This document shows positions 1,681 through 32,442 of a stretch of DNA of 32,442 bases, one piece after another; the first letter of the stretch is position 1; each line of letters opens with the position of its first letter. Below the pieces are notes generated by a model. It did not search any database. It was not told the origin of the DNA and saw only the letters and a list, made by a program, of their open reading frames with translations. The stretch covers positions 1-32,442 of the forward strand of contig JAUPLS010000150.1 of assembly GCA_030836805.1 (NCBI GenBank). The letters are read 5' to 3'. This stretch comes from Campylobacterota bacterium (GTDB taxonomy: Bacteria > Campylobacterota > Campylobacteria > Campylobacterales > Sulfurovaceae). Position numbers and translations under genes: made by a program.

Positions 1681-1691
1681 TTATACTCTCC

Positions 1692-2315: not shown

Positions 2316-2328
2316 CTCTTTCTCCTCC

Positions 2329-3333: not shown

Positions 3334-3337
3334 CGCA

Positions 3338-5818: not shown

Positions 5819-5819
5819 C

Positions 5820-5951: not shown

Positions 5952-5966
5952 TCTAACAATAAGTAC

Positions 5967-8081: not shown

Positions 8082-8082
8082 T

Positions 8083-10412: not shown

Positions 10413-10423
10413 ATTTGCTCTCC

Positions 10424-11650: not shown

Positions 11651-11659
11651 CTTTTCTCC

Positions 11660-13471: not shown

Positions 13472-13484
13472 GAGAGTATTCTCA
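13454..13484. repeat. Cluster of short palindromes at the 5' end of the nuo transcript
   Basis: Three palindromes lie side by side: GTGCATTGCAC (13454-13464), ATGCAT (13466-13471) and TGAGAGTATTCTCA (13471-13484). They sit between the candidate -10 box and the coding start of the 46-codon ORF. They could be an operator or small RNA hairpins; each arm is only five or six bases, so chance is possible. Confidence 0.35.
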
Positions 13485-15439: not shown

Positions 15440-15461
15440 TAAAATTCCTATTTTTTCTTTG

Positions 15462-15467
15462 AGTATA
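15462..15467 (-). promoter_or_regulatory. Candidate -10 box of the AAA+ ATPase gene
   Basis: TATACT on the minus strand, in TTGTTATACTC, lies 22 bases before the TTG start. A second possible -10 for the opposite strand, TGCTATACT (TATACT at 15480-15485), lies close by. Confidence 0.45.
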
Positions 15468-15572
15468 ACAAAGATTTGCTATACTTTGACTAAGACAATC
15501 CATTCATAAGGGACAAAAGACGCGCAGGCGGCAAAGATGGTGAGTATATTTTTATATTTAAATTCATAAAAC

Positions 15573-15578
15573 TATAAT
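15573..15578 (+). promoter_or_regulatory. -10 box of the HPr-EI gene
   Basis: A perfect TATAAT lies 57 bases before the chosen ATG, with only a weak T-rich -35 region. Transcription should begin near 15585, which places the hairpin at 15590-15608 at the very 5' end of the mRNA. Confidence 0.55.
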
Positions 15579-15589
15579 CTCTTTGCCTG

Positions 15590-15608
15590 TTGTGCCAAAA
15601 GTGCACAA
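15590..15608 (+). promoter_or_regulatory. Hairpin at the 5' end of the ptsHI leader
   Basis: TTGTGC (15590-15595) and GCACAA (15603-15608) form a perfect six-base stem with a seven-base loop; the palindrome TTGCGCAA follows at 15614-15621. No ribosome binding site is seen before the ATG at 15635. The hairpin may stabilise the message or be an operator. Confidence 0.4.
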
Positions 15609-15634
15609 TAAGCTTGCGCAATAACAATATACTC

Positions 15635-17473
15635 ATGTCATTTTTAAATACAATTTTTTATAAACCTTATCAGACACAACTGCGTGTCACTTCAGCCAAT
15701 GGGTTTCATCTGCGGCCCGTAGCCTCTTTTGCCAATATAGCAAAACGGTTCCCCTGCCGCATCTGGGCCTCCTTTAAAAATAAAAAAGCCGATGCCAAAA
15801 ACATTAATGCGCTGCTTTCACTTTCATTAGATACACAAGACTGTTTTACGCTTACCGCCCAGGGCAGAAAAGCAGAAGAAGCGCTTGAAGCATTGACGGA
15901 ACAATTTTCTTTTCTGATGCAAAATGACCCAGAACCATACAAAATACAAAAAGAAAAAAACCTCTATGAAGGCAGTGGAGTCGAAGGTGAAATCATTGCA
16001 GACGGTATCGCTGTAGCCAGGCTGCACAACCATTCCACGCAAGAAATACTGACAGAAAACAGATTGGGCTTTCAAGATGCACTTAAAGAGAGCCTGCAAG
16101 AGCTAGACATGCTTCACTCCCTGCACCAAACAGCTTCTAGCGGAAGTATCTATCTTGCGCAAAAAGAACTGCTCAAGACACTGGCACAAACCAATAATAC
16201 CTTAAAAGATTTTGAAGATGCCATCGCAGATGCTTCACATTCCCTCAAAGGAACCCCGATAGAAGCCAAAATAAGTGATTACCGGGATCTCCTTTGGCGT
16301 ATCAAAAAACACTTAGGTGCTGAAGAAAAATTAATACTTCCGGCTACACCTTTTATTCTTGTCGCAGACGATCTTCTTCCTGGCCATATAGAACAGTTGA
16401 CACAAAGTCAAGCGCAAGGCATTGTCCTCAAAAAAACCTCTTTACGTTCGCATACTGCCATTTTGTTGCGTGCAGCGGGGATACCTTCACTTATAATTGT
16501 GCGGCCTGATGATGCAAAATATGACTTCATTTCCGATATGGTTATCCTGGATGCCCATGCAGGGATACTAGTTTACACACCAAGCCAAAATGATTTACAA
16601 AAAGCAATGGAACGTTTACAAAAAAATAAAAGTGAAAAAAAACAAGCACAGGATCAACGCTTTAAAAAAGCAGTTACGGCCCAAGGTAAACCCATCCATC
16701 TTTTTGCCAATGTCTCGGATGTCAAAAGTGCCAAAGAAGCCAAAGAAGAAGGGGCTGAAGGTATCGGCCTTTTACGCAGTGAATTTTTATTTACTCAGAC
16801 AAAACCCTCATTTGAAGCACAAGTTCATGCCTACAAAGAAATCTTTGCCCTCTTTGAGGACATCACTGTGCGTACACTGGATATAGGAGGCGACAAAGCG
16901 CTTCCTTATATGCAGCTCCCATACGAGAGCAATCCTTTCTTGGGCGTCAGGGGAATACGTCTACTCGAGACCCATCCCGAAATTCTTGAAGAACAGCTTC
17001 ATGCTATTTTTATCGCTGCGCAAAGAAAACCTATAAAAATTATGTTTCCGATGGTTGCCCGGACAGAAGAGTTCATTCAAGCCAAAGCTTTTGCCTATCG
17101 CGTCGCCAAAAAATATGGACTTGACATCTCCTCTATCCGATTTGGCATTATGATAGAAGTGCCGTCTGTGCTCTTTTTGCTGCAGCAGTTCAATAAAGTG
17201 GTCGATTTTTATTCTGTCGGCACCAATGACTTGAACCAATATCTCTTTGCCATTGAGCGCACCCATCCCACCCTTAAACTCGATGCACACTCCAGTGTGC
17301 TTTTTGACGCACTGGAAAAGATCGTCAAAGAAGTGGCCAAACCGCTTAGCCTCTGCGGAGAACTTGCCTCAAATAAAGAAGCGATACCCAAATTGGTGGC
17401 CCTGGGGATCGAAACGCTAAGCGTCTCGGCCAAAATGATTAGCACCATCAAAGAAGAGATACGCCATGTTTAG
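15635..17473 (+). CDS. ptsI: PTS HPr-Enzyme I fusion protein (PEP-protein phosphotransferase)
   Basis: A 612-residue cytoplasmic protein joining HPr (about 12-95) to Enzyme I (about 115-612). HPr active site: H25 in NGFHLRPVA. Enzyme I: phospho-His H273 in SLRSHTAILL, PEP-binding IGLLRSEFLF (377-386), LDIGGDK (415-421), NPFLGVRGIR (433-442), VGTNDLNQY (528-536) and catalytic Cys C574 in LSLCGELAS. The position matching the HPr regulatory Ser is Asn in this chain, so HPr-kinase control is unlikely. It carries no IIA or GAF domain. It starts the phosphate relay from PEP. The ATG at 15635 was preferred over an upstream TTG at 15590 because the latter lies within the leader hairpin and adds residues unlike HPr. 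It overlaps nagE by eight bases. Confidence 0.93.
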   Translation: MSFLNTIFYKPYQTQLRVTSANGFHLRPVASFANIAKRFPCRIWASFKNKKADAKNINALLSLSLDTQDCFTLTAQGRKAEEALEALTEQFSFLMQNDPEPYKIQKEKNLYEGSGVEGEIIADGIAVARLHNHSTQEILTENRLGFQDALKESLQELDMLHSLHQTASSGSIYLAQKELLKTLAQTNNTLKDFEDAIADASHSLKGTPIEAKISDYRDLLWRIKKHLGAEEKLILPATPFILVADDLLPGHIEQLTQSQAQGIVLKKTSLRSHTAILLRAAGIPSLIIVRPDDAKYDFISDMVILDAHAGILVYTPSQNDLQKAMERLQKNKSEKKQAQDQRFKKAVTAQGKPIHLFANVSDVKSAKEAKEEGAEGIGLLRSEFLFTQTKPSFEAQVHAYKEIFALFEDITVRTLDIGGDKALPYMQLPYESNPFLGVRGIRLLETHPEILEEQLHAIFIAAQRKPIKIMFPMVARTEEFIQAKAFAYRVAKKYGLDISSIRFGIMIEVPSVLFLLQQFNKVVDFYSVGTNDLNQYLFAIERTHPTLKLDAHSSVLFDALEKIVKEVAKPLSLCGELASNKEAIPKLVALGIETLSVSAKMISTIKEEIRHV

Positions 17474-18842
17474 CTTGCTTCAACGCATCGGCAAAGCCCT
17501 CATGACCCCTATAGCGGTATTGCCTGTTGCAGCACTGCTGCTTCGTCTGGGCTTTGGCGATATTTTTGACGGGCAAGCGGCTTTGATAATGAAAAGTGCG
17601 GGGGAGGCGGTATTTGCCAATCTTGATCTGCTTTTTGGAGTAGGTATCGCCTACGGACTCTCTAAAAACCATGATGGGGCTGCTGCATTATCCGGGGCAA
17701 TTGGCGTACTGATCGCCAAAGCGGTATACACCAGCATTGACGAAAATGTCAATATGGGGGTATTTGTGGGCATCATTGTCGGAGTACTTGCGGGCAGTCT
17801 CTATAACCGCTTTTATAGCATTAAACTCCCTGAGTATCTCGGTTTTTTTGGAGGTAAACGTTTTGTGCCCATCATCACTTCTCTTGCTGCGATCCTTGTG
17901 GGCGTACTTTCGGGGTACTTTTGGCACTATGCCCAAAGCGGCATCACTATATTTTCCAATGCAATCATAGGATTAGAAGCATGGGGCACCTTTATATACG
18001 GCACTCTCAACCGTCTCCTTATCCCCCTTGGATTACACCATATTCTTAACTCTGTTTTTTGGTTTCAATTGGGCGACTATAACTACATCAAAGAGAGCCA
18101 GGAGATCATTGCCCACGGTGATTTGCATCGTTTCTTTGCGGGAGACAAAACCGCCGGCGTGTATATGTCAGGATTTTATATCATCATGATGTTTGGGCTG
18201 CCGGGTATGGCCTTGGCAATGTACCTCAATACAGCAAAAACCTACAGAAAAAAAGCGGGAGCAATTTTGGGAGGCGTAGCCTTTACTTCTTTTCTTACGG
18301 GGATTACCGAGCCTATGGAATTTTTATTTCTGTTTGAAGCCCCCCTGCTTTTTGTGGTGCATGCACTGCTGACGGGTTTGGCACTTGCTTTGGCGCAGAT
18401 ACTTGATATCCATGCGGGCTTTGGTTTTTCTGCAGGATTTATAGATTATCTCATCAATTATAAACTTGCTACCCATCCTCTGCTTCTTCTTCCTTTGGGG
18501 ATAGTATTTGCGCTCGTCTATTTTGTTACCAGCTATTACATCATAAAATATTTTAGGCTGAAACTATTTGAAGAATCCTCCGATACACCTACACTGCAAA
18601 CCGACAATGAAACTTTAGCGTTTATCAACGCACTGGGAGGGGCTGAAAATATTATTCATGCCGATGCCTGCATCACAAGGCTAAGAATGAGCCTCAAGCA
18701 AAGCGGGGAACTTGACGAAAAAGCGTTTATACCACTGGGGGCGAAAGGGGTAATACGGCCCGACAACACGTCCATTCAGATCGTACTTGGCGCAAAAGCA
18801 CAACATGTTGCCGAATCGATCAAAGAGGCACTAAAACGCTAA
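17466..18842 (+). CDS. nagE: PTS IICB permease of the glucose family, GlcNAc (NagE) type
   Basis: A 458-residue inner-membrane protein. Residues 1-365 are the IIC channel with about ten hydrophobic segments; IPLGLHHILNSVFWFQLGDY (186-205; landmark GLHHILNSVFWF) resembles NagE more than PtsG, and the ITEPMEF signature is at 280-286. Residues 380-458 are the IIB domain with the phospho-Cys C402 in DACITRLRMS. The IIA part found in E. coli NagE is missing here but is supplied by the convergent crr gene. It overlaps the HPr-EI gene, so the two are co-expressed. The last four bases, including the stop, overlap the 3' end of the small gene on the opposite strand. The substrate is inferred as GlcNAc or a related N-acyl amino sugar. 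Confidence 0.9.
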   Translation: MFSLLQRIGKALMTPIAVLPVAALLLRLGFGDIFDGQAALIMKSAGEAVFANLDLLFGVGIAYGLSKNHDGAAALSGAIGVLIAKAVYTSIDENVNMGVFVGIIVGVLAGSLYNRFYSIKLPEYLGFFGGKRFVPIITSLAAILVGVLSGYFWHYAQSGITIFSNAIIGLEAWGTFIYGTLNRLLIPLGLHHILNSVFWFQLGDYNYIKESQEIIAHGDLHRFFAGDKTAGVYMSGFYIIMMFGLPGMALAMYLNTAKTYRKKAGAILGGVAFTSFLTGITEPMEFLFLFEAPLLFVVHALLTGLALALAQILDIHAGFGFSAGFIDYLINYKLATHPLLLLPLGIVFALVYFVTSYYIIKYFRLKLFEESSDTPTLQTDNETLAFINALGGAENIIHADACITRLRMSLKQSGELDEKAFIPLGAKGVIRPDNTSIQIVLGAKAQHVAESIKEALKR

Positions 18843-19407: not shown

Positions 19408-22092
19408 TCACCTTTGATATTTTATTTCTCCCTCAACAATTGTCATTATGATACTAAATTCTTCATCAAACATCACTATGTCTGCATCATAACCCGCTTT
19501 GAGAGCTCCCTTTTTTATGCCAAGCTTTTGCGCAGGAAGTGTTGTCACGCTCCTCACTGCCTCCAATGGCGTCATAGAGGTAAAGGCTGTCATGTTTTTC
19601 AATGCTTCGTTGAGTTTAAGTACGCTGCCTGCCAGCGTGCCATCTTCCAAAAAAACTTTTCCTTGCAAAACTTCTGCTTTTTGTCCTCCCAAATCGTAGA
19701 TCCCTTCCTTCATGCATCCTGCCCGCATACTGTCGCTAACAAGGATCAATTTGTCTTTTTTAAGCCGATAAATATGCGACAATACAGAAGGATGGATATG
19801 CACTAAATCCGCTATAACATCACATGTAACGTCTGTATCGAAAACTGCGCCTGCGATACCGGGGCTTCTGTGATGATAAGGATTCATCGCATTAAACAAA
19901 TGGGTCGCATGCGAAATGCCGTGTACAAAACTTGCTTTGCTTTGTTCATAGCTTGCATCGCTGTGTCCGATACTTAAGATAACATGAGGGTATCGGTTTG
20001 CCATATACTCGATGAACGTCCGGCCTTCTTCTACTTCCGGGGCAAGTGTAATCATCTTCACCTCATCGATATACGGCCCTATCCATGTTGTATTGGGTGT
20101 TTGAACATATGCCTGATCTTGCGCACCATGTCTCATGGGGTTTACAAACGGCCCCTCCAGATGCACGCCCAATATCTTTGCGCCGTTTACTTGGTGCTTG
20201 TGTTTTTTTACATTTTCTAAAGCATGGCATATCGCCCCTGTTGACATCGTCATCGTTGTTGCCAAAAATGAGGTCGTACCTGTTTGCAAAAGTGCCGAAG
20301 AGATCGTCTCCAGCGCCAAAGGTGTCGCATCCATCACATCTGCACCGCCGCACCCATGGATATGCAAATCGATAAACCCTGCACTCACATAGGCCCCTTT
20401 GGCATCAATGAGCTCCACATCTTCAGGAGGCATATCGACAATACCGACAATCTTCTTGCCAAAAAGCAATACTTTTCCTTCGACTATCCCTTCATCAAGA
20501 AACATTCTGGCATTCACAATCGCTTTGACAGCCCCAGAATCTTCAAACAAATACCCCTCTTTTAGCTGTTCTTTCAGCATGCGCTTGAGCACTTTTCCCG
20601 TTGCATTTTTAGGCAATGCCTTGACAATATGAAATTGTCTAGGCATCTTATAGTTGGCAAGATGTTGACGGACATATGCTTTAAGTTCTGCCTCGTCTAT
20701 GCGATCCAGTTCCTCTTCAAGCTCCAAATAGGCTATAGGTATTTCGCCGTTTTTTTCGTCTTCTATGCCTATCACCGCAGAAGCGGCAACACCTTTAAAA
20801 CTGTTGATTACCTCTTCTATCTCGCGTGGGTAAATATTGATTCCTTTTGAGATGATCAAATCTTTTTTTCTATCGACGATAAATAAAAATCCTTCTTGAT
20901 CCATATAGCCCATATCACCCGTAAGCAGCCATCCGTTTATAATCGTCTGGGCAGTAGCCTCCGGAAGCCCGAGATAGCCTTTCATCACATTATCCCCTCT
21001 GAGGATAATGTCACCTATTTCACCCAGTGGCACTTCAACCAGATTTTCATCTACAATTTTTATCTCGTATCCATACAGCGGCGTTCCCACCGATCCGGCT
21101 TTTTGTTTTTGAAACGTATTCATACTCACAGCAGGCGATGCTTCGCTCAATCCATACCCTTCCAGCAAGGCGGCTTTTTTAAATTTGCCTGCCATTGCAT
21201 CAAGCGTTTTAGACTGTAAGGGTGCTGCTCCGGAAATAAAAGCACGCACACAATTAAACCACATAAAATACCAAGGCAGTTTTGCTTTGGAAAGTGCATT
21301 ATACACATCAGGTATCCCAAAGAAAATTGTTACACGCTTAAGCAACACCTGCTTAAAGATATTTGAAAAAGGCTGTATAGATCTGATAATGACGATACTT
21401 GCCCCCACGTACAGCGGCAGCATCACCCCTATCGAAAAGGTAAAAGAGTGAAACATCGGCAAAAAAACAATCGCCCTGTCTTTGGGGGTGACATGGATCG
21501 TCATCGCTCCGGAACGGGTATTGGAAAAAATATTTTTATAACTGAGCATCGCGCCTTTTGGTTTGCCGGTAGTTCCGGATGTATAGATAATCACCGCCGT
21601 ATCTTCTAGTATCATGCCTGCTTGCGGCACATGGAATGTTGAGTTTATGGCTTCTTTGCATTCGCAATCAAAACTGCTCTTTGTTTCAAAATCGCCTTCC
21701 CAAATCACATTGGTACACAATGCATAAGCACAGCTTGCCTTCACTGTTTTTTCATAAGCCGCCGAAGCGATCAATACGGTTGCTCCGCTGTTTTCAAGAA
21801 TATACGAAAGCTCTTCTTCTTTCAGGAAAGTATTGATCGGCACGACGATAGCCCCGACTTTGGAAGCAGCAAAAACACTATAGACAAACTCGGGACAGTT
21901 ACGCAAAAAAAGTGCGATTTTATCGCCTTTTTTGATGCCCTTATGTGCCAAAAATCCTGCAAATGCATCTATCTTTTCAAGCAGCTGGCCGTACCTGATT
22001 TTCTCCTCATCGATAAGAAGCGCTGCTTTTCTTCTGTCTTTTTCCGCTCTAAAGGAGATCAGCTCATAAAAATTATTAAATGCATCATCCAT
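19408..22092 (-). CDS. nagA: Fusion of AMP-forming acyl-CoA ligase (N) and N-acetylglucosamine-6-phosphate deacetylase NagA (C)
   Basis: One 894-codon frame. Residues 1-515 are an acyl-adenylate ligase of the FadD/4CL type: P-loop YTSGTTGKPKG (170-180), YGLSEASP (313-320), TGDMGYMDQEGF (391-402), DRKKDLIISKG (407-417) and the catalytic Lys K500 in NATGKVLKR. From about 521 a full NagA begins: metal ligands in DLHIHGCGG (575-583), E646 in GVHLEGPF, H710 in SIGHSDAS, the HLFNAMNPYHHRSPG substrate motif (731-745), and the catalytic Asp D787 in LVSDSMRAG. Both halves keep their key residues. The junction shows no frameshift. NagA alone would give GlcN-6-P and a free acid, which the ligase half could activate. 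It starts two bases after fadL. A separate internally started NagA is possible but unproven. Confidence 0.92.
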   Translation of the reverse strand: MDDAFNNFYELISFRAEKDRRKAALLIDEEKIRYGQLLEKIDAFAGFLAHKGIKKGDKIALFLRNCPEFVYSVFAASKVGAIVVPINTFLKEEELSYILENSGATVLIASAAYEKTVKASCAYALCTNVIWEGDFETKSSFDCECKEAINSTFHVPQAGMILEDTAVIIYTSGTTGKPKGAMLSYKNIFSNTRSGAMTIHVTPKDRAIVFLPMFHSFTFSIGVMLPLYVGASIVIIRSIQPFSNIFKQVLLKRVTIFFGIPDVYNALSKAKLPWYFMWFNCVRAFISGAAPLQSKTLDAMAGKFKKAALLEGYGLSEASPAVSMNTFQKQKAGSVGTPLYGYEIKIVDENLVEVPLGEIGDIILRGDNVMKGYLGLPEATAQTIINGWLLTGDMGYMDQEGFLFIVDRKKDLIISKGINIYPREIEEVINSFKGVAASAVIGIEDEKNGEIPIAYLELEEELDRIDEAELKAYVRQHLANYKMPRQFHIVKALPKNATGKVLKRMLKEQLKEGYLFEDSGAVKAIVNARMFLDEGIVEGKVLLFGKKIVGIVDMPPEDVELIDAKGAYVSAGFIDLHIHGCGGADVMDATPLALETISSALLQTGTTSFLATTMTMSTGAICHALENVKKHKHQVNGAKILGVHLEGPFVNPMRHGAQDQAYVQTPNTTWIGPYIDEVKMITLAPEVEEGRTFIEYMANRYPHVILSIGHSDASYEQSKASFVHGISHATHLFNAMNPYHHRSPGIAGAVFDTDVTCDVIADLVHIHPSVLSHIYRLKKDKLILVSDSMRAGCMKEGIYDLGGQKAEVLQGKVFLEDGTLAGSVLKLNEALKNMTAFTSMTPLEAVRSVTTLPAQKLGIKKGALKAGYDADIVMFDEEFSIIMTIVEGEIKYQR

Positions 22093-22093
22093 A

Positions 22094-23311
22094 TCAATAC
22101 TCGTAAGAAATTCCTATGGTAGTCAAGAAAGCGCCGCCTTCATCAAAACTTCCGCCATTTTTAAGTACTGCATTGGGATTGACGCCTGCGGGGACGGAAA
22201 AACTCTCTTTGCTGTCATAAAGAATCGCTGCACCCCAGGAAAGATTTTCTGTTTGCTGATATCGAAATCCCATCGAAAAGATCTTGGCGTCACTATCGGG
22301 CAATTCAAAACCTACTGTTTCTACACAAACAGGTGTTTCATCTATTGAAAATCCCATCATTGCAGTCAGCTTATTGTCCATTCTCATTGTTGCTCCTATC
22401 CTGAACGTATCGGTATCTTTCCAGTTTTTGACGATAGGATCATCAAAATAGGGTGTCAATGGTTCGATGTCTGCGCCTGCGTATTCAAAATCCAATGTTT
22501 TATATTTTGACCAATAGGTTTTTTCATAATTAAATTCCAAAGTGAACTTTTCTTGCCAGGTTTTACTTACGGCAATATTGAGTGAAGCGGGCAGCGGAAC
22601 CGATACACTCGCATCTCCATTATAAAGCAAAACATCACCATAAAAAAGTTTTGCCGTTCCTTTTTCGTCAAGGTCGATATTGGACCGATAGGTAACAGCC
22701 AGATTGATATCTTCACCCAATGCATAAGCCATCGCCAGATTGTATCCCGTTTCAAACGTATCGCCTTCCATATCCCGTGAAATATCCCCTGCACTTTTCA
22801 CCACGCCTTCACTGTAAACAATTCTTGCTCCTCCGCCGACACTTAAATAGTCCGACACCTTATAAGAAACAGAAGGATTAAATTCTAAAACTTTGAGTGT
22901 AAACTCTTGGGCATACAGTTTTTGATAAGGCGCATCCCATCTTTTTGTCAATCCCGCAGGTACCGTCAAGCTTGCTCCCCATCTGAAATCACCCATCGGT
23001 GCGGATACATAATGGAAATTGGGGATCAGGATATTTTCTGTTTTTGACTCGCCTGAATATGGATCAATCAGCGTATAAATATTTGGAGGCAGATGCGCCA
23101 GAGTAAGCCCTCCTTCTATATATTCTTTATCCACGGCCATAAAAGCCATATTTGCCGGATTGTAGTAGGCGGTATCCGCCCCGGCCGTGTGCGCCGTATA
23201 CGCCCCACCCAAAGCCACCGAATTGAGAGACTGTTCAGGAATTTTGTATCCTCCTGCCATTGCCGACGTGCCTGCTGTAATGGCCAGCACCAATCCTTTG
23301 ATGTTTTTCAT
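22094..23311 (-). CDS. FadL/OmpP1-family outer-membrane channel
   Basis: A 405-residue outer-membrane beta-barrel with a signal peptide (MKNIKGLVLAITAGTSAMA, cleavage near AMA-G) and the FadL family start: GGYKIPEQSLNSVALGGAYT followed by the NPANMAF turn (family NPAxM/L). It ends in aromatic alternation (ISYEY). Members pass long-chain fatty acids or other hydrophobic molecules. The start at 23311 was chosen since it has a very strong ribosome binding site (AAGGAGGGAGGGG) and begins the signal peptide; the longer frame would run into nfo. It lies between nfo (28 bases) and the ligase-NagA fusion (one base), so it is co-transcribed with the latter. Confidence 0.9.
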   Translation of the reverse strand: MKNIKGLVLAITAGTSAMAGGYKIPEQSLNSVALGGAYTAHTAGADTAYYNPANMAFMAVDKEYIEGGLTLAHLPPNIYTLIDPYSGESKTENILIPNFHYVSAPMGDFRWGASLTVPAGLTKRWDAPYQKLYAQEFTLKVLEFNPSVSYKVSDYLSVGGGARIVYSEGVVKSAGDISRDMEGDTFETGYNLAMAYALGEDINLAVTYRSNIDLDEKGTAKLFYGDVLLYNGDASVSVPLPASLNIAVSKTWQEKFTLEFNYEKTYWSKYKTLDFEYAGADIEPLTPYFDDPIVKNWKDTDTFRIGATMRMDNKLTAMMGFSIDETPVCVETVGFELPDSDAKIFSMGFRYQQTENLSWGAAILYDSKESFSVPAGVNPNAVLKNGGSFDEGGAFLTTIGISYEY

Positions 23312-23339
23312 CCCCTCCCTCCTTTTTTCAATAAATATT

Positions 23340-24227
23340 TTATTTAACCAGCCCATAAAGCCCTTTAATCTCTTCCGGCCAGCGCGATTCATCGATGGTT
23401 TCCAATATCAAAGGAATATCATCCATGCACAAATCATTCATTATAAACCTAAACGTATCCCAGCCAAGCTGACCCCGGCCCAAAGATTCATGCCTGTCCA
23501 CCCTTGAACCCAATGTTGGCTTAGAGTCATTAAGATGCATACCGCTAAGATACTCAATTCCTACGATACGTCCGAATGTATCCATTGTTTCATCATAAGC
23601 ATCTTTGGTGCGCAGGTCATAGCCTGCCGTGAAGGTATGGCATGTATCCAAACAAACACCTACACGGCTTTTGTCTTCAATCCTATCGATCAAATAAGCT
23701 AAGTGTTCAAACTTATACCCTAGATTGCTGCCTTGGCCTGCGGTATTTTCTATCACAAGTTTGACGCCGGAATTTTTGGTCGCCTCTATAACCCTGTTCA
23801 TTGATTCGGCTATCACATCCAAACAATGCTGTTCGGCATTTGCCAACAAATTATCGTATAAAGGATCTTTTTTATTAATCTTTGTCAAATGTGAACCGGG
23901 ATGAAAATTGAGCTTGTCGAGCCCCAATACGCGGCAACGCTCTACCTCATCGATAAACGCTTCGCGTGATTTTTCAAGCTTGTCAACCTCAGGATGTCCA
24001 AGATTGATCAGATAACTGTCATGAGGAAGAACATGCTTAGGCAGAATGCCTGCGAGTTCTAGGTTTTGATGAAAGGCATCAATGTTTTCTTTCTGCAAGG
24101 GTTTTGCCGTCCACTGCCTTTGATTTTTTGTGAAAAGAGCAAAAGCTTTCGCTCCGATCGCCATCGCATTTAAAGGAGCATTCTCTATTCCCCCGCTTAT
24201 ACTGACATGTGCGCCTACAAATTTCAT
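23340..24227 (-). CDS. nfo: Endonuclease IV (AP endonuclease, Nfo)
   Basis: A 295-residue TIM-barrel AP endonuclease that cuts at abasic sites in base-excision repair. Seen: N-terminus [16 protein letters not shown] (His zinc ligand in GAHVS), NFHPGSHL near 101-108, [13 protein letters not shown] near 157-169, [13 protein letters not shown] near 192-204, [22 protein letters not shown] (landmarks [15 protein letters not shown]) and ILETIDE near the C-terminus. All trinuclear zinc ligand motifs are present. It starts by a four-base ATGA overlap with the lipoprotein gene. Its presence in this operon seems unrelated to sugar or lipid metabolism. Confidence 0.96.
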
Positions 24228-24799: not shown

Positions 24800-24874
24800 G
24801 GCCCCATCGTCTAGCGGTTAGGATCCATGGTTTTCATCCATGTTACCGGAGTTCGAGTCTCCGTGGGGTCACCA
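24800..24874 (+). tRNA. tRNA-Glu (anticodon UUC)
   Basis: A full cloverleaf of 75 bases with encoded CCA. The acceptor stem GGCCCCA pairs with TGGGGTC; the anticodon stem CATGG/CCATG encloses the loop TTTTCAT, with TTC at 24833-24835; the T arm is CGGAG-TTCGAGT-CTCCG. It lies between the divergent lipoprotein operon and modE. No attachment-site repeat of its 3' end is seen in the window. Confidence 0.97.
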
Positions 24875-25035: not shown

Positions 25036-25827
25036 ATGCATAACCATATTGACGGAAGACTTTGGATTAACAAAGCCAAACAAAATTTTTTAGGCAGAGG
25101 ACGCATTGAGCTGCTTGAACATATTCATCAAACAGGCTCCATCTCCGGCGCTGCCAAAATAATGAAGATGAGCTATAAGGCTGCCTGGGACGCCATCGAT
25201 GCGATCAACAAACTCTCTGAAGAACCGCTGGTAGAACGATCCACAGGAGGCAAAGGGGGCGGGGGTACACGCCTGACTCCAAAAGGGCTGGAATACATTG
25301 CCCTCTATAAAAAAATTGAACATGCCCAGCACCTTTTTTTTGAAGCGCTGGAGCACTATACTGACGACAGCGATAAATTTTCTGCTTTTGTCTCTAAACT
25401 GACATTGCGAACCAGCGCAAGAAATCAGCTTCTAGGCACCGTTGTCGACATCAAAACAAACAAAAACCAAGCCAAGCTTACCATTAAAATCGATGAGAAA
25501 ACACAAATTGTCGTCATCATCACCAAACAGAGCCTTAAAGAGATGGATATCCAAAAAGGAGCAGCGCTCTATGTTTTGCTCAAAGCCGCCTGGATCTCTT
25601 TGCTTAAAACCAAACCGGCCATCACAGAAGAAACAAAAAATTATCTTTGCGGGACAATTATACGCATTGACGAAGATGAAGTACAAAGCGAAGTCACAGT
25701 CTCCCTTGAAGGAAAGCAGACGCTTATTGCATCGATCCCGACCCAAAATCTCACAACGCAATCGCTTGCTTGCGGCGATAAAATCTGGGCAGCATTCGAT
25801 ATCTCAAGTGCTTTGGTTGCCGTCTAG
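25036..25827 (+). CDS. modE: ModE-family molybdate-responsive regulator
   Basis: A 263-residue regulator. Residues 15-100 form a LysR-like winged helix: LLEHIHQTGSISGAAKIMKMSYKAAWDAIDAIN (landmarks GSISGAAKIM and SYKAAWDAID, typical of ModE), then the wing STGGKGGGGTRLTPKG. From about 125 two TOBE/Mop-type molybdate-binding repeats follow; the first starts TSARNQLLGTV, the usual ModE entry, and the second near 205 (NYLCGTIIRI). It thus has the full ModE layout, binding molybdate or tungstate and then DNA. AAGGG precedes the ATG. Inverted repeats of the ModE type lie directly downstream, before the transport operon and before the porin. Confidence 0.93.
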   Translation: MHNHIDGRLWINKAKQNFLGRGRIELLEHIHQTGSISGAAKIMKMSYKAAWDAIDAINKLSEEPLVERSTGGKGGGGTRLTPKGLEYIALYKKIEHAQHLFFEALEHYTDDSDKFSAFVSKLTLRTSARNQLLGTVVDIKTNKNQAKLTIKIDEKTQIVVIITKQSLKEMDIQKGAALYVLLKAAWISLLKTKPAITEETKNYLCGTIIRIDEDEVQSEVTVSLEGKQTLIASIPTQNLTTQSLACGDKIWAAFDISSALVAV

Positions 25828-25896: not shown

Positions 25897-25928
25897 ATAT
25901 CGTTATATTTTAAGTTATATAACGATAT
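25897..25928. promoter_or_regulatory. ModE box 1 (perfect 12-bp inverted repeat)
   Basis: ATATCGTTATAT (25897-25908) and ATATAACGATAT (25917-25928) are exact inverted copies eight bases apart. This matches the known ModE operator style (CGTTATAT with an inverted partner). It overlaps the candidate -10 box, so metal-bound ModE would block the transport operon. Confidence 0.8.
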
Positions 25929-25937
25929 GATTTTAAA
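25903..25937. repeat. Duplicated promoter-operator segment, copy 1
   Basis: The 35 bases here match 31719-31753 with a single mismatch (T at 25909, C at 31725). The match spans part of the ModE box, its spacer, the TATGAT box and a following TTTTAAA, more than ModE binding alone would need to conserve. It suggests one copy arose from the other. Confidence 0.75.
25926..25931 (+). promoter_or_regulatory. Candidate -10 box of the Mo/W transport operon
   Basis: TATGAT begins inside the right arm of ModE box 1 and would start RNA near 25938, giving a leader of about 200 bases. The same TATGAT is conserved at the porin promoter within the duplicated 35-base segment. Confidence 0.45.
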
Positions 25938-25961
25938 GTATCTGGAGGGAAGGTAAGATAA

Positions 25962-25989
25962 ATCGTTATATATTTATTTATATAACTAT
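25962..25989. promoter_or_regulatory. ModE box 2
   Basis: ATCGTTATATA (25962-25972) and TATATAACTAT (25979-25989) form an 11-base inverted repeat with one mismatch and a six-base spacer. It lies 33 bases beyond box 1, inside the leader if the TATGAT promoter is used, where bound ModE could act as a roadblock or guard a second start site. Confidence 0.7.
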
Positions 25990-26023
25990 TTTTGTATGTA
26001 CTGCAAAATTGTAAGTGATTTTA

Positions 26024-26093
26024 TTTGCCAAATACTTCATTTGCAAACAGTGACTCTTCATATGATATCGCCTCCATAGCCTCCGGCGGTATC
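26024..26093 (+). ncRNA. Structured leader before the Mo/W transport operon (two hairpins)
   Basis: Hairpin A, 26024-26046: TTTGC(C)AAAT and ATTTGCAAA around ACTTC with one bulged C. Hairpin B, 26064-26093: GATATCGCC pairs with GGCGGTATC (one U-G) around a 12-base loop containing CCTCC; GCCTCC occurs twice. The CCTCC could pair with GAGGGG at 26098-26103 or with the AAGGAG ribosome binding site of the next gene. This is a candidate cis-acting RNA; it does not plainly match the Moco riboswitch as I remember it. Confidence 0.35.
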
Positions 26094-26135
26094 TTCTGAG
26101 GGGTCAATGCTATTTATTATTTAAGGAGTTTTTGC

Positions 26136-27158
26136 ATGAAATTATTTTCGATTCTTGTTTTTTGTTTTCTGACAAGCTGTCTGCTTGAGGCTAAAAATAT
26201 GACCCAATCCTCCGATCAGGCTTCCCCTTTACCCAAACAGGTAAAACGTGTTTTTGGGTCATCTCCGCCCATGACCTATCTTCTCTATGCTTTAAATCCT
26301 GACAAAATGATAGGGCTTAACTTTAAAGCCAAAAATCCAAACAACAGTGCAGACAAAGAGTTTGTAGGAGAACGCTTTCTCTCTCTTCCTGTTATAGGTT
26401 CTTTTCATGGCGGCGGCAACGATATCAATCTTGAAAGCCTCATGGCATACAAGCCCCAACTTATTTTAGTGTGGCAGGATGATATGCGTATGCAAATAGT
26501 CGAACGTGAAATCATAAAAACCAATATACCTACACTTTTCGTTGAATTTCGTGAGATTGAAGATATGCCAAAAGCCTTTATTAAAGCAGGAGAAGCAATC
26601 GGAGAAAAGGAGCGCGGACAAAGGCTTGCAGAATTTATCCAAAAAAGCATCGATGAAGTTCGCGAGGCTACGGCAAAACTCAAACCGGTGCGATATTACT
26701 ATGCAGAAGGTATTGATGGACTCTCGACTGAGTGCGACCAGTCCTTTCATGTCCAGGCGCTTAATTTTGCCGGGGGAGAAAATGTCCACAAATGCCAACA
26801 AAAAGGGGTGCTTGGCCTGGAAAAAATTACATTTGAAACGCTTCTAAACTATGATCCTGAGGTTATCGTGGTGCAAAACAGAGCGGTCTACAATGATATT
26901 CTTTTGGACCCGCTCTGGGGACGTCTTAGTGCAGTGAAAAATAAGCGTATCTATTTGGTACCCACCGCACCGTTTAATTGGCTCGATAGGCCCCCTTCAT
27001 TTATGCGTGCTTTAGGTATCGAGTGGCTTGCTTCGGTATTTCATCCCGAAGCCCACACTATCGATCTCAATGACCGCATTAAAGCATTTTATGAACTTTT
27101 TTTCAATGTTCATTTAAATGATGAACAAATTAAAAATATATTAAGGACATCTCTATGA
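26136..27158 (+). CDS. ABC transporter substrate-binding protein, siderophore/B12/molybdate (class III) type
   Basis: A 340-residue periplasmic binding protein of the BtuF/FhuD/MolA class. The start has a signal sequence with a lipobox-like LTSC (Cys 15), so it may be lipid-anchored; otherwise it is cleaved near EA-K. Class III features: VKRVFGSSPPMTYLLYALNPDKMIGLN, NLESLMAYKPQLILVW, PTLFVEFREIED, NYDPEVIVVQNR and a C-terminal GIEWLASVFHPE, separated by one long helix region at 145-175. In this class H. influenzae MolA binds molybdate and tungstate. ModE boxes upstream point to the same ligand here. AAGGAG precedes the ATG, and the stop overlaps the receptor gene by four bases. Confidence 0.88.
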   Translation: MKLFSILVFCFLTSCLLEAKNMTQSSDQASPLPKQVKRVFGSSPPMTYLLYALNPDKMIGLNFKAKNPNNSADKEFVGERFLSLPVIGSFHGGGNDINLESLMAYKPQLILVWQDDMRMQIVEREIIKTNIPTLFVEFREIEDMPKAFIKAGEAIGEKERGQRLAEFIQKSIDEVREATAKLKPVRYYYAEGIDGLSTECDQSFHVQALNFAGGENVHKCQQKGVLGLEKITFETLLNYDPEVIVVQNRAVYNDILLDPLWGRLSAVKNKRIYLVPTAPFNWLDRPPSFMRALGIEWLASVFHPEAHTIDLNDRIKAFYELFFNVHLNDEQIKNILRTSL

Positions 27159-29386
27159 AACTCTCTTATTCATTACTTTTGACAATCACCGCTTCGGCTC
27201 TTTTTGCCGAACCGATCACCATCGAAACAATATCGATAGTGGAAACACAAGACAGTGCAGATTTTTTTATGGAAGAAAACAACCGAACGGCACAAATATT
27301 CACCCAAAAAAGTATAGCGTCGCTTGGATCACAAGCAAAAATGAACCCCTATTCGGTCATTTCGTTTGCACCGTCTGTCAATTTTACGCCCGTCGATCAG
27401 GCGGGATCCAATGAGCCTTCTTTTCATGATCCTATCCGCATCCGAGGCAAATCCCAATCGGGCCCCGGAGGTGTATTCATGCTAAACGGCCTGCCTGTCT
27501 CGAGCAACCCTGGAGGCGGAAAACAGATGGTTGATATGGAAAATATAGGCTCTATCGATCTCTACAAGGGCTATCTTGAAGTGGATAAAAACCTAGGCTT
27601 CTCAAGCTTGATCGGAAAAGTGGATCTCAATATCCTCCCCCCTGCTTCTACCAGCAAGAGTACCATTTCGCAGTCATTCGGCACAGATAACTTTGAACGT
27701 ACTTTTTTACGGTTTGATTCGGGAAAAATGGGTAATTTTTCAACCTTTGGATCATTCTCTTACCTTAGCAACGACAAATATAAAGGTGAAGGTGATTTGG
27801 AGCGCATAAATGGAATGTTTGGCCTTACGTATAAACCAAACGATGCTTTAAAAACAGAATTTTATGCGATTTACAATAGCGACGATCATCATAATTATAA
27901 CAGCCTGACCTATGCGGAGGCCCAGGATCTAGATACCTATTTTGATAAAGATTATGCAACTGTGCAGCCAACTGCAAGCAATGATGTCAACTACTATGAC
28001 TGGAATAAACAAAGTTTTGACACGATTGCCTTGCTTGGGAACCTTGAGTACCGTCTTGGCAGCAATGATGTGCTCTCTTTTAAGCCTTACTACAAAAAAG
28101 ATGAGGGAGACTATTGGTATTCAAGCATAAAAGCAGATCCGGCCAAAAACCGCGTGGTCGACTGGTACATGGACCATGATCTGTTTGGGGCTGTTGCGGC
28201 ATATGAGCATACATTCTCCGATATGGCTAAAACAAAAATAGGTTACTGGTATCATCGCCAGCTTCCTCCCGGGCCTCCGTCTGATCAATCAAAATATCGT
28301 GTAGTAGACGGCGAACTTGTATTTGACGGCTATGCCGTGCTGGCAGACAATGATTATCATACCCTCCAGGCGCCATTCGTTAAGCTTTATGGAGAAAACG
28401 GCTGTTTTGACTATGCTGTAGGTATCCAATATCAGTCTTTTGGGCTAGGAAACTTAACAAGCTACACCAACGGTACGAATAGCTCAACCAGCATGGATTA
28501 TGATACCGCTATTGCAGAAGGCACTATAGATCCATGGGCAAGCGTCGAAGAGCATACTTTCCACACTTTTCTGCCTTCGCTTTACTTAGGGTATCAAGCA
28601 ACGGACGATACAACAGTTTATATCGATTATGCGCGCACCTACGGTTTTGATGTAAATCTTTTCCCTACTTATGTTACAAATCGCAATACATTTGTCTCAA
28701 AAGGTATTACGTTGCAAACGCTTTGGGATGAACTTGAACTTGAAACCTCCGACAACATTGATTTGGGATTTAAAACCATGGTCGGCGCCGTTACATTGAA
28801 CCCAAATCTTTTTGTGTCTTTTGTCAAAAACAAGCAAGCCAACATCTATGATCCGCAATACGGTGTGAGCTATCCTGCAAATATGGGGGATGCACTCGGA
28901 TACGGAGCAGAGCTTTCAGCATACGGCCCGATCCTTGATAATCTTGAGCTTATCATCGGGCTTTCATACAACCGTTATGCGTTTTTGGAAAATTTCCAAA
29001 GCAGTCCGACATCCACTGTGCAAACGGATGGCAATCAGCTTCCTGATGCACCAAGAGTGATGGCAAAGGCAGCCCTTTCCTATCAATATGACAACTGGAC
29101 GTTCACGCCAAGTGTCCAATATACTTCCAGCAGATACGGTGATGTACTCAATACACAAAAAATTGATGCATTCACGTTGGTTAATCTTGATATAGCATAC
29201 CGGCCATATGAATTTTTGGGTACAAAAAATGCAAAACTTCACATCGGCCTTACCAATCTGACCGATGAAAAATATATCGCTACGATCAACACACCGGATA
29301 ATGTTTTGTCTGCTTCAACGACAGATGCAACCTTCCAAACAGGAGCACCGTTTAGTGCTTATTTTGGTATTGAACTTAAGTTTTAG
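27155..29386 (+). CDS. TonB-dependent outer-membrane receptor
   Basis: A 743-residue receptor. Signal peptide MKLSYSLLLTITASALFA, cleaved before E19; a TonB-box-like ETISIVET lies near residues 24-31. The plug follows at about 45-160 (SVISFAPSVNF, IRIRGKSQSGPGGVFMLNGLP, MENIGSIDLYKGYLEV in short), then a 22-strand barrel with aromatic-rich strands, the late motif GLTNLTDEKYI near 693-703 and a terminal Phe (YFGIELKF), which fits BAM export. It is translationally coupled to the binding protein and followed after six bases by the permease, so its cargo is likely the same: a molybdate/tungstate species or chelate, under ModE control. Sequence alone does not show the ligand. Confidence 0.92.
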   Translation: MKLSYSLLLTITASALFAEPITIETISIVETQDSADFFMEENNRTAQIFTQKSIASLGSQAKMNPYSVISFAPSVNFTPVDQAGSNEPSFHDPIRIRGKSQSGPGGVFMLNGLPVSSNPGGGKQMVDMENIGSIDLYKGYLEVDKNLGFSSLIGKVDLNILPPASTSKSTISQSFGTDNFERTFLRFDSGKMGNFSTFGSFSYLSNDKYKGEGDLERINGMFGLTYKPNDALKTEFYAIYNSDDHHNYNSLTYAEAQDLDTYFDKDYATVQPTASNDVNYYDWNKQSFDTIALLGNLEYRLGSNDVLSFKPYYKKDEGDYWYSSIKADPAKNRVVDWYMDHDLFGAVAAYEHTFSDMAKTKIGYWYHRQLPPGPPSDQSKYRVVDGELVFDGYAVLADNDYHTLQAPFVKLYGENGCFDYAVGIQYQSFGLGNLTSYTNGTNSSTSMDYDTAIAEGTIDPWASVEEHTFHTFLPSLYLGYQATDDTTVYIDYARTYGFDVNLFPTYVTNRNTFVSKGITLQTLWDELELETSDNIDLGFKTMVGAVTLNPNLFVSFVKNKQANIYDPQYGVSYPANMGDALGYGAELSAYGPILDNLELIIGLSYNRYAFLENFQSSPTSTVQTDGNQLPDAPRVMAKAALSYQYDNWTFTPSVQYTSSRYGDVLNTQKIDAFTLVNLDIAYRPYEFLGTKNAKLHIGLTNLTDEKYIATINTPDNVLSASTTDATFQTGAPFSAYFGIELKF

Positions 29387-29392
29387 GGAAAA

Positions 29393-30439
29393 ATGGCCAT
29401 GTTGCATTTTCTGTTTGATCGAACCAAACAAAAAAGATACTTAGTTGTTGGAACAGTTATACTTACGGCAATAGCAGCTTTATCGCTGCTATTGGGCCAG
29501 TACCCTATCGATTTTCATACATTTATAGCATATTTAAATTATAAAATTTACGGCATTGCTGATATAGAAATAGATACTTTGGCTCTCATGGACAATATCA
29601 TTCTAGAGATTAGGCTGCCTAGAATTTTGCTTGCCATTCTTGTAGGAGCAGCACTTGCAACTTCCGGAGCAGTGTTTCAAGCGATGTTTGTCAACCCTCT
29701 CGTTTCGCCCGGAATCCTGGGTGTTTTGGCAGGAGCTTCATTTGGTGCAGCATGCGGAATGCTTATCAGCGAACAATGGTACATAGTACAAGCATTGGCG
29801 TTTTCTTTTGGATTTATCGCTGTTGGTTTTGCTGTTTTAGTTGGTTCCATAGGAACAAACTCACGCTCTACCGTGATGCTTGTTTTGGGTGGAGTGATTA
29901 GTAGCTCGCTCTTCACTTCACTTTTATCTATTATAAAATATGCAGCAGACCCTTACAGCTCACTTCCGGCTATAGTTTATTGGCTGATGGGTTCGCTTTC
30001 CATGGCGAAACTTGATGAAGTTTTAATTGTAGCAATTCCTATTTTAATTAGTATTTTTGGAATGATATTTATGGGTAAATACTTTGACCTCTTAAGCCTT
30101 GGCGACGAAGAAGCAAAATCGCTTGGCATCAATGTCAAGCTTATTCGTATAGTTGCGATTATCTTAGCTACCTTGGCCAGTTCACTCTCTGTCGTTATGG
30201 CCGGGATTATCGGCTGGGTTGGGCTTATCATTCCTCACATCATCCGTCTGGCAATAGGACCGTCCCACCGTTTGCTTGTTCCGCTCTCTGCCATTGTCGG
30301 AGGAGCATTTTTGCTTCTGGCCGATGCCGTCTCACGCCTTGCACTTAGCGTCGAGATACCTATTGGGATTTTAACCTCTCTTATAGGAATACCGGTATTC
30401 ATTATGGTTTTAAAAAATGCGAGGGCGGCATGGAACTAA
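29393..30439 (+). CDS. ABC transporter permease, FecCD/BtuC family
   Basis: A 348-residue inner-membrane permease with about nine or ten spans. Family motifs are visible: IRLPRILLAILVGAALATSGAVFQAMFVNPLVSPGILGV (landmarks RLPRILLAILVGA, NPLVSPGILGV), LGDEEAKSLGI near 230-240 (coupling region) and GIIGWVGLIIPHIIRLAIGPSHR near 270-292. It forms the channel for the class III binding protein. FecCD-type permeases carry siderophores, B12, haem, and in MolBC molybdate or tungstate. It overlaps the ATPase gene by ten bases. The ATG at 29393 has AGGGA just upstream. Confidence 0.92.
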   Translation: MAMLHFLFDRTKQKRYLVVGTVILTAIAALSLLLGQYPIDFHTFIAYLNYKIYGIADIEIDTLALMDNIILEIRLPRILLAILVGAALATSGAVFQAMFVNPLVSPGILGVLAGASFGAACGMLISEQWYIVQALAFSFGFIAVGFAVLVGSIGTNSRSTVMLVLGGVISSSLFTSLLSIIKYAADPYSSLPAIVYWLMGSLSMAKLDEVLIVAIPILISIFGMIFMGKYFDLLSLGDEEAKSLGINVKLIRIVAIILATLASSLSVVMAGIIGWVGLIIPHIIRLAIGPSHRLLVPLSAIVGGAFLLLADAVSRLALSVEIPIGILTSLIGIPVFIMVLKNARAAWN

Positions 30440-31206
30440 AACCTATCATAGAAGTGAAAGATCTACACTTTTCATACAAAAAAAGCCAAGTTCTCTGCGG
30501 CGTAGATCTGCGGCTTTTCAAGGGTGAAGTTGTCTCGCTTTTAGGACCAAACGGGTGCGGAAAAAGTACGCTTATCAAACTTATTTTAAAACTGCTTCAT
30601 GGGAATGGAGAGATACTTTTGCATGAGAAATCCATTGAAGAATATTCGCACAAAGAGATAGCCTCTCATATTGCCTATATACCTCAATACCATCATGTCC
30701 CCTTTGGCTACAGTGCTTTAGAAATGGTACTTATGGGGAGAGTCTCAAAGCTTGGCATTTTCGCCTCTCCTTCATCCCATGATCATTTTATAGCGCTTGA
30801 AGCGCTAAAAAAAGTCGGTATTTTGGATTTGAAAGACAGGATATTCGGACAATTAAGCGGCGGACAAAAACAACTCGTTCTTTTTGCACGCGCCATTGCC
30901 CAAGGGGTAGATACATTCATCATGGATGAGCCTGTAAATGGGCTAGACTATGGGAATCAAATGAGACTTTTAGAGTTTATTTATAAACTAAGCCACGAAG
31001 GGTATACATTTTTAAAAACCACGCACTATCCGGACCATGCACTTCTTATTTCAAGCCGTACAGTGGTTATGAACGGCGGGAAAATTATATCGGACGGCCA
31101 ACCTGGCGAAGTGATTACTGTACCCATGATTCAAGATGTTTACGGAGTCAATGCAGAGATTATCACACACGATACACATAAAAGATGTATGCCGATCTTT
31201 AGATAA
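30430..31206 (+). CDS. ABC transporter ATP-binding protein, FepC/BtuD type
   Basis: A 258-residue ATPase. Walker A LLGPNGCGKSTLIK near residues 37-50, Q-loop YIPQYHHVPFGYSALEMVLMGR near 81-102 (landmark IPQ...FGYSALEMVLMGR, typical of the siderophore/B12 group), signature LSGGQKQLVLFARAIAQ near 144-160, Walker B TFIMDEPVNGLD near 164-175 and switch His in KTTHYPDHA. It powers the permease encoded just upstream, with which it overlaps. Confidence 0.94.
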   Translation: MELKPIIEVKDLHFSYKKSQVLCGVDLRLFKGEVVSLLGPNGCGKSTLIKLILKLLHGNGEILLHEKSIEEYSHKEIASHIAYIPQYHHVPFGYSALEMVLMGRVSKLGIFASPSSHDHFIALEALKKVGILDLKDRIFGQLSGGQKQLVLFARAIAQGVDTFIMDEPVNGLDYGNQMRLLEFIYKLSHEGYTFLKTTHYPDHALLISSRTVVMNGGKIISDGQPGEVITVPMIQDVYGVNAEIITHDTHKRCMPIFR

Positions 31207-31230
31207 AAAATTAAAACGAAGGAAAAAATA

Positions 31231-31689
31231 ATGGAACTTTTTTATAACATCGTTCACATCATACATCTATTTAGCGCGATGCTTTTTTTGGGGTGGGGGT
31301 TTGCAAAAATATTTGTTTTGCCGGCAGCAAAAAACAACATTGATTCAAACGCACACTTTGAAATGAAAAAATCTTTAGCAAAGAGGGTTTGGAAAATATA
31401 TCCGACTAACTTCTTCATCCTGATAATAACGGGGGGTATATTATTTTTTAAATATACAAATTTTGAAAATGGGTTTTTTCCTACAACATTTCAAACACTT
31501 TTGATTATAAAGGCTGCTCTTGCTTTGGGAATCGGTGCCAAAGTTTTATATTCTGTTTCCGGCAGAATTCTATTTAAGATCCAACATTCACAGGATCCAA
31601 ATCCGGTAGAAAACTCTGCTTACAAATATATTTTTTCTATTGCGGTCATTATCGTATTGTTAGCAAAATTAATGTTTATGGTCCGGTAA
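31231..31689 (+). CDS. Four-span integral membrane protein, possibly CopD/DUF2269-like
   Basis: A 152-residue protein with four hydrophobic segments at about 5-30, 58-75, 82-105 and 126-150. The first contains HIIHLFSAMLFLGWGFAKI; His residues near the membrane face recall CopD and related haem- or copper-linked families. GAAGGAAAAAAT precedes the ATG, 24 bases after the ATPase gene, so it is likely co-transcribed with the Mo/W importer. It has no soluble domain. No specific function can be read from the sequence; it may help metal entry, or be a haem-binding or regulatory protein. Confidence 0.7.
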   Translation: MELFYNIVHIIHLFSAMLFLGWGFAKIFVLPAAKNNIDSNAHFEMKKSLAKRVWKIYPTNFFILIITGGILFFKYTNFENGFFPTTFQTLLIIKAALALGIGAKVLYSVSGRILFKIQHSQDPNPVENSAYKYIFSIAVIIVLLAKLMFMVR

Positions 31690-31712
31690 ACAGATTTTTG
31701 AAGCTTATTGGG

Positions 31713-31744
31713 ACATCCTTATATCTTAAGTTATATAACGATAT
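31713..31744. promoter_or_regulatory. ModE box 3, before the porin gene
   Basis: ACATCCTTATAT (31713-31724) and ATATAACGATAT (31733-31744) are inverted copies with two mismatches and the same eight-base spacer as box 1. It lies 36 bases before the porin ATG and overlaps the TATGAT box at 31742-31747, so the porin should be repressed with the transport operon. Confidence 0.7.
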
Positions 31745-31753
31745 GATTTTAAA
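31719..31753. repeat. Duplicated promoter-operator segment, copy 2
   Basis: This is the partner of 25903-25937, identical in 34 of 35 bases, and includes the TATGAT -10 candidate at 31742-31747, which would start porin RNA near 31754 with a leader of about 27 bases. The left arm outside the duplicated part has diverged, which is where box 3 departs from the perfect repeat. Confidence 0.75.
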
Positions 31754-31780
31754 AGTGCTGTAAAATAAAAAGGAGGAAGA

Positions 31781-32442
31781 ATGTTGTTCTTTAGATTTTG
31801 TCTAATCACACCACTCCTTCTTCTGGGCCCAAAAACAGTCTACGGAACAGATGAGGCGTCTAAACGTACGCTTAAGTCCAATATGAGGGAGGTTTATCAT
31901 CAAATCCCCGGCGGTGCGGAAACGTTTACACAAATGCTCTCAGAAGGCATATGGTACGGAAGAATCCGCTTTAACAGCTTCAAGTGGAACTGGGAAACGC
32001 AGACCGATCAAGATCAAAACAATTGGGCAACTGCGATAGGAAGCAGCCTGATCTACAAAAGCGCCTATCTTAGCGGCTTTGGTTTTACGGCAGGCCTTTA
32101 CACCTCTTACAATCCTTGGCATATGGATGCAGAAGATGTCAGATTTGTCAAATCGGGCAAAGATCTTTTTTCGCGCTATGAAGTGCTTCACGGAGGAAGA
32201 TTTGATTTGGCAACATTTGCCCAGTCCTATCTGGAATATAAAAACGAGCAGCTCTCTATTAAGGCAGGCCGCCAGATCTTTGAAAGTTTTTTAACCGCAA
32301 GTAACGATACTAAAATGATACCCAATACCTTTGAAGGCATGGCTCTAGAGTCACGGCATATTCCTCATACATTCATCAAAACAGCCTATCTCACCCGCCA
32401 AAAACTAAGAGACCACGAAACATTTCATCATCTTCTTGCTTA
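31781..32442 (+). CDS. OprD-like outer-membrane porin, 3' end beyond window
   Basis: The first 220 codons are present. A signal peptide (MLFFRFCLITPLLLLGPKTVYG) precedes a segment typical of Campylobacterota Opr-type porins: EGIWYGRIRFNSFKWNW near 55-71, SAYLSGFGFTAGLYTS near 93-108, YLEYKNEQLSIKAGRQIF near 151-168 and IPNTFEGMALESRHIP near 181-196. OprD-like porins pass small ions or organic acids. An excellent ribosome binding site (AAGGAGGAAGA) lies directly before the ATG. With ModE box 3 upstream, it may admit molybdate or tungstate, or help under metal shortage. The family call is from sequence character and is less sure than the other features. Confidence 0.8.
   Translation, partial: MLFFRFCLITPLLLLGPKTVYGTDEASKRTLKSNMREVYHQIPGGAETFTQMLSEGIWYGRIRFNSFKWNWETQTDQDQNNWATAIGSSLIYKSAYLSGFGFTAGLYTSYNPWHMDAEDVRFVKSGKDLFSRYEVLHGGRFDLATFAQSYLEYKNEQLSIKAGRQIFESFLTASNDTKMIPNTFEGMALESRHIPHTFIKTAYLTRQKLRDHETFHHLLA

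Follow-up and report, generated by a model that had tools for sequence, protein, structure and literature searches.

A ModE-boxed gene cluster with a TonB-dependent receptor, a probable route for energised molybdenum and/or tungsten import across the outer membrane in a Campylobacterota bacterium

Gene content of the locus

The DNA analysed here (the window, 32,442 nucleotides at its full length) is contig C143:1-32442 of a Sulfurovum-like host genome of 1.73 Mb that is 94% complete and comprises 175 contigs. From position 25036 onwards, the plus strand encodes, in this order, ModE, a Peripla_BP_2 binding protein, a TonB-dependent receptor (TBDT), a FecCD permease, an ABC ATPase, a 152-aa membrane protein and the start of a porin, together with three predicted ModE boxes:

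25036..25827, + strand: ModE, molybdate-responsive regulator with HTH and tandem Mop/TOBE domains (TIGR00637, TIGR00638, 1B9M)
25901..25924, + strand: predicted ModE box 1, CGTTATATTTTAAGTTATATAACG (0 mismatches; ~210 bp 5' of the binding-protein gene)
25964..25987, + strand: predicted ModE box 2 (1 mismatch; 63 bp downstream of box 1)
26136..27158, + strand: periplasmic binding protein, 4PAG family, class III fold (Peripla_BP_2, 1.3e-21; 4PAG, 3.8e-84)
27155..29386, + strand: TonB-dependent outer-membrane receptor (plug and barrel domains above the Pfam cut-off)
29393..30439, + strand: FecCD-type inner-membrane permease (PF01032, 7.5e-81; HI1471 = MolB, 4.1e-59)
30430..31206, + strand: ABC ATPase (PF00005, 2.5e-28; closest solved relative HI1470 = MolC, 5.6e-38)
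31231..31689, + strand: 152-aa membrane protein, weakly DUF2269-like (Pfam 25.1 bits, under the cut-off of 28)
31717..31740, + strand: predicted ModE box 3 (1 mismatch; precedes the porin gene)
31781..32442, + strand: porin, 5' part, ending at the contig edge (OprD, 1.7e-5; NF033923, 2.3e-8)

Between 26136 and 31206, neighbouring genes overlap or lie at most 7 bases apart, a spacing that suggests a single operon. A sequence-only reading of this DNA had described, for positions 25897-32442, modE followed by genes for a binding protein, a TonB receptor, a FecCD permease and an ATPase. All were found intact at or adjoining this range, which contains the other genes but not modE, located just 5' of it. 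The same reading had placed a porin with its own box after the ATPase unit; porin and box are present, but the gene for the 152-aa membrane protein intervenes and the porin is incomplete at the contig end.

Upstream of modE lies a tRNA-Glu (ttc) gene (24800-24874, plus strand). Elsewhere in the window, an 894-aa protein encoded on the minus strand (19408-22092) fuses an AMP-binding acyl-CoA synthetase to a NagA-resembling amidohydrolase; its gene adjoins that of a FadL-type outer-membrane protein (22094-23392), and homologues of equal length occur in L017 and L039, loci of two close Sulfurovum relatives.

ModE and its predicted boxes

The regulator combines an N-terminal ModE HTH domain with tandem Mop domains. 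It scored 107.4 bits against TIGR00637 (cut-off 98.5) and 90.8 against TIGR00638 (cut-off 55), and 209.9 against the full-length equivalog model PRK10676, under that model's cut-off of 369. The match to the E. coli ModE structure 1B9M (7e-42) extends over nearly the full length, with the SYKxAWDAI and TGGKGGGG motifs conserved.

The two boxes that had been proposed before the operon and the one before the porin are borne out by consensus matching and shuffle tests. Three CGTTATAT-N8-ATATAACG sites start at 25901, 25964 and 31717, with 0, 1 and 1 mismatches of 16, respectively. The window-wide chance expectation for such sites is 0.19, three sites were obtained in 0/100 shuffles, and none of 200 shuffles per intergenic region reached the observed match. 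The geometry equals that of the E. coli-type ModE consensus, ATCGNTATATA-N6-TATATANCGAT (PMC545781). When the whole genome (1.73 Mb) was searched for CGNTATAT-N8-ATATANCG with at most one mismatch, only four sites were found, three of them in the cluster and one on contig C128 after modC. Sites of this pattern thus stand 5' of the cluster genes and are kept in relatives: in both L017 and L039, box 1 is identical, box 2 recurs in a weaker form at an unchanged distance, and box 3 is unchanged in sequence. No box was detected upstream of modE itself (best match 9/14, the same as in shuffles). For four further receptor genes of the host genome, one of them having just 183 upstream bases, the upstream match to the ModE pattern was at most 9/14.

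An AT-rich region and the TA-rich core of the box would favour the view that the sites are palindromes arising by chance in AT-rich DNA. This view is contradicted by the shuffle tests and by conservation at the same places in relatives, and we regard it as exceedingly improbable.

The cluster thus resembles the E. coli ModE regulon (modABC) in the architecture of ModE and in box geometry. It differs in that, in the window and its relatives, a TBDT, TonB and a porin carry boxes. To our knowledge, the E. coli ModE regulon includes no TBDT, TonB or porin.

The porin and the linked mod genes

The truncated porin scored 24.6 bits against OprD, just under the cut-off of 25, and was also under the cut-off of the Opr porin model NF033923. 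Complete homologues of ~490 aa are encoded in L017 and L039, where the boxed porin leads into mod genes, modA being next. The order in both is modE-SBP-TBDT-FecCD-ATPase-membrane protein-porin-modA-modB-TauE-modD-mop-modB-modC. In the host genome, the same mod series follows a closely similar porin end on contig C128. The porin ends of C143 and C128 are similar, not identical, and the contigs have no exact overlap; continuity from the porin to the mod genes in this genome is therefore deduced from the synteny in L017 and L039. The C128 site within one mismatch lies downstream of modC, ahead of a second porin.

The host genome also contains moaA and genes for several molybdopterin enzymes. Nitrogenase was considered as a molybdenum consumer and is not supported, since the NifH model matched short fragments only. 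Between modC and the second porin, which is of the Alginate_exp type, two ModE-like boxes can be seen on C128 (L063, 1823-1916).

The binding protein and the MolBC-like importer

The structure model of the binding protein (mean pLDDT 87.9) aligned with 4PAG at Z 41.8 and with MolA (3PSA) at Z 26.3. The nearest solved relative is 4PAG, 39% identical in the structural alignment. Its PDB title designates a solute-binding protein without assigned function, and no mention of it was found in the open-access literature searched. Stretches of 4PAG match the product of the gene that immediately follows modE in locus L011, which identifies this locus as belonging to Sulfurospirillum deleyianum; the 4PAG gene thus adjoins modE and boxes, like that of its family member in the window. 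Among proteins with known ligands, MolA was the best single-sequence match, and structural Z values were close among MolA, nickel-binding CeuE and YiuA. In the alignment, MolA has no equivalent of four family-invariant residues (C200, H205, C220 and R285). The binding protein is therefore not a MolA orthologue, and the pocket chemistry of MolA cannot be transferred to it.

The closest solved relative of the permease is MolB (HI1471), ahead of FhuB, HmuU and BtuC, and that of the ATPase is MolC. H. influenzae MolA binds molybdate and tungstate, and MolABC is a low-affinity system (PMC4031551). The analogy that had been drawn with H. influenzae MolABC (HI1470-HI1472) holds for the ABC machinery and for the class III type of binding protein, but not for the binding pocket, as MolA lacks the invariant Cys/His/Arg signature. 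In a further difference from the present cluster, TonB is not mentioned in PMC4031551.

The 152-aa membrane protein recurs as well: S. deleyianum (L011) and L031 encode proteins 58-60% identical to it next to their TBDTs.

The TonB-dependent receptor and its energisation

The receptor was modelled with a pLDDT of 86.1 and a pTM of 0.87, and the closest folds were PqqU, Fiu, PiuA, FoxA and FecA. It shares the plug/barrel architecture of the metallophore receptors (FhuA, FoxA, CntO, FecA and Fiu) and of PqqU, and a TonB-box-like motif, ETISIV, was noticed by eye at residues 24-29, near the mature N-terminus. In structural alignment it is only 12-17% identical to these proteins, and ModE boxes and mod genes occupy the place where iron regulation would be in metallophore systems. 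None of the curated siderophore, haem and B12 receptor models reached its cut-off (106.2 versus 223.5, 27 versus 316.9 and 18.1 versus 599.7 bits).

In five related loci (L018, L019, L021, L022 and L025), the binding-protein gene is immediately preceded by a TonB gene, itself located behind a ModE box. In S. deleyianum, boxes lie between modE and a divergently oriented ExbB-ExbD-TonB-FecCD-ATPase series, and the 4PAG protein is encoded after modE. The window cluster has no TonB gene of its own, and five TonB_C genes are located elsewhere in the host genome.

Distribution of the receptor and its genomic context

A scan of 84,980 genomes, which may have lacked the records closest to the window, yielded 36 receptor loci. 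The nearest relatives of the receptor, at 95% identity, are from Sulfurovum MAGs; Sulfurovum, Sulfuricurvum, Sulfurimonas, Sulfurospirillum and former Deltaproteobacteria contain homologues that are 40-67% identical, whereas those of Thiobaca, Halothiobacillaceae and Arcobacter are more distant. The receptor tree groups largely by lineage. An order-level sample contained the receptor in 7/149 genomes and in 0/3 other genomes of the same genus, so that its distribution is patchy. No relatives were found among viral contigs.

In 35 loci, a fixed 2.5 kb window upstream of the TBDT was surveyed for boxes with at most 2 mismatches of 14. Such boxes were present in 18/35 loci, not all of them independent, versus 0.18 expected. 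In 14 loci, mod genes lie within ~11 kb of the receptor gene. Mod-linked receptors include those of L026, L027 and L044 (former Deltaproteobacteria) and of L040 and L041 (Gammaproteobacteria), in none of which a box with at most 2 mismatches was found within 2.5 kb 5' of the receptor. L033 has 3-mismatch sites only. Boxes and recognised mod genes are both absent from the loci of the six remotest homologues (L047-L052, 22-29% identical), which served as the control for boxes. The sequence-only reading had suggested a search for ModE boxes before TonB receptors in other Campylobacterota; among Campylobacterota, former Deltaproteobacteria and Gammaproteobacteria, related TBDTs have such boxes or mod genes as neighbours.

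Related clusters from Sulfurovum, Sulfuricurvum and Arcobacter often include a luciferase-like monooxygenase, a small methyltransferase, a truncated globin and further TBDTs. The monooxygenase recurs in L018, L019, L020, L021, L029, L038, L043, L045 and L046, often with the methyltransferase and globin alongside; the window cluster, L017 and L039 showed none of these genes and no further TBDT. One possibility is that these accessory genes handle a chelator.

Such contents bear on two other readings of the cluster. The first is that an ordinary uptake cluster for iron-siderophore, haem or cobalamin happens to adjoin modE, which merely tunes it to the demand of Mo-enzymes. The fold families are indeed common to iron, haem and B12 systems, the second TBDT type of the related clusters is haemin-receptor-like (under cut-off), and truncated globins occur in these clusters. 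We nonetheless consider this reading improbable: the receptor falls under the cut-off of every siderophore, haem and B12 receptor model, and the linkage across several phyla is with ModE boxes and modABC. In addition, no classical 19-mer Fur match above shuffles was found in the upstream regions of the cluster, although Fur sites in this phylum may differ.

The second is cofactor salvage, in which the receptor would take up an intact organic Mo/W compound such as molybdopterin or a breakdown product. This would fit the fact that a cofactor receptor, PqqU, is the closest TBDT fold, and that second TBDTs (e.g. in L045) repeatedly have small Oxidored_molyb-domain proteins and luciferase-like monooxygenases as neighbours. 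These genes are missing from the window cluster, however, and a search of the host genome, run without a positive control, turned up no homologue of the monooxygenase. With moaA present in the genome and co-location with ModABC pointing to the metal, salvage seems quite improbable.

A proposed pathway for energised Mo/W import

We consider it likely that the cluster encodes a ModE-controlled pathway for the import of Mo and/or W with an energised step at the outer membrane. Predicted control by ModE and a putative role in Mo/W uptake are both well supported. The proposal of a ModE-controlled TonB receptor with a class III importer for Mo/W, already made in the sequence-only reading, gains support from the genome-wide search for boxes, porin-modABC synteny, box or mod linkage in at least three phyla, boxed TonB and ExbBD-TonB genes, and the likeness to MolB and MolC. 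Counting against the pathway are the closest predicted folds of the receptor, whose known members transport Fe-siderophores or PQQ, as well as the patchy occurrence of the receptor, the unboxed delta- and gammaproteobacterial relatives, the mismatch to MolA residues and the absence of a dedicated TonB gene from the window cluster.

From the gene content, the boxes and their conservation or mod linkage in relatives, we infer the following steps. Under Mo/W scarcity, oxyanion-free ModE would leave the two boxes 5' of the binding-protein gene and the porin box, as suggested by E. coli ModE. The receptor, presumably driven by TonB-ExbBD, would then import Mo/W species that pass poorly through porins, most likely bound to a chelator or other ligand. 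The binding protein would pass these species on to the MolBC-like FecCD/ATPase importer, while the boxed porin and the downstream modABC products would take up free oxyanion in parallel.

Chelation or organic binding of the substrate, suggested by the very use of a TBDT, has in our estimate about an even chance. Free oxyanions pass porins, and the known substrates of TBDTs are mostly larger. A variant of the preferred pathway would make the receptor a high-affinity gate for free molybdate, tungstate or thiomolybdate at very low concentrations. That the TBDT is linked to a porin with a box, to ModA and to a MolBC-like importer is consistent with this variant, as is the lack of recognised chelator-synthesis genes in the cluster; the size of known TBDT substrates speaks against it, and we hold it to be rather unlikely. 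Azotobacter imports Mo complexed with secreted ligands, the catecholate molybdophores. The comparison is one of principle, and chelator synthesis genes were not found in the window cluster.

Molybdate and tungstate are generally held to cross the outer membrane passively. The combination of a predicted ModE-controlled TBDT with an importer, and the retention of the receptor beside molybdate-uptake genes in relatives from sulfidic habitats, suggest that some bacteria probably pump Mo/W through the outer membrane rather than await its diffusion. The evidence leaves evenly balanced the broader hypothesis of a TBDT family dedicated to group-6 metals, one that would import a molybdophore-like Mo/W complex under ModE control in bacteria of sulfidic habitats and that, in some lineages, would have its own TonB-ExbBD and accessory enzymes. 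In the open-access literature searched, of which coverage was incomplete, no report was found of a ModE regulon that includes a TBDT, or of a TBDT that serves Mo/W. If real, a TonB-energised, ModE-controlled route would extend the substrates of TonB receptors to group-6 metals and would point to limitation or ligand binding of Mo/W in sulfidic waters. A ModE box combined with a TBDT gene might also serve as a genetic marker for possible users of molybdophores. S. deleyianum, a cultured organism with a solved binding protein, makes the pathway directly testable.

Other genes near the related transport clusters

In L040 (Thiobaca trueperi), positions 309-17867 encode ModE, mop, modC, TauE and modD together with three TBDTs, and boxes lie near modE. 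Small Oxidored_molyb-domain proteins are encoded near the second TBDT type at L037:9284-9805, L040:6177-6821 and L045:16825-17301. Beside the transport clusters of L011 and L026 (at L011:16212-17993 and L026:8043-9857), a radical SAM half is fused to a periplasmic-binding-protein-like half, as recognised from Pfam matches for L026 and from similarity for L011.
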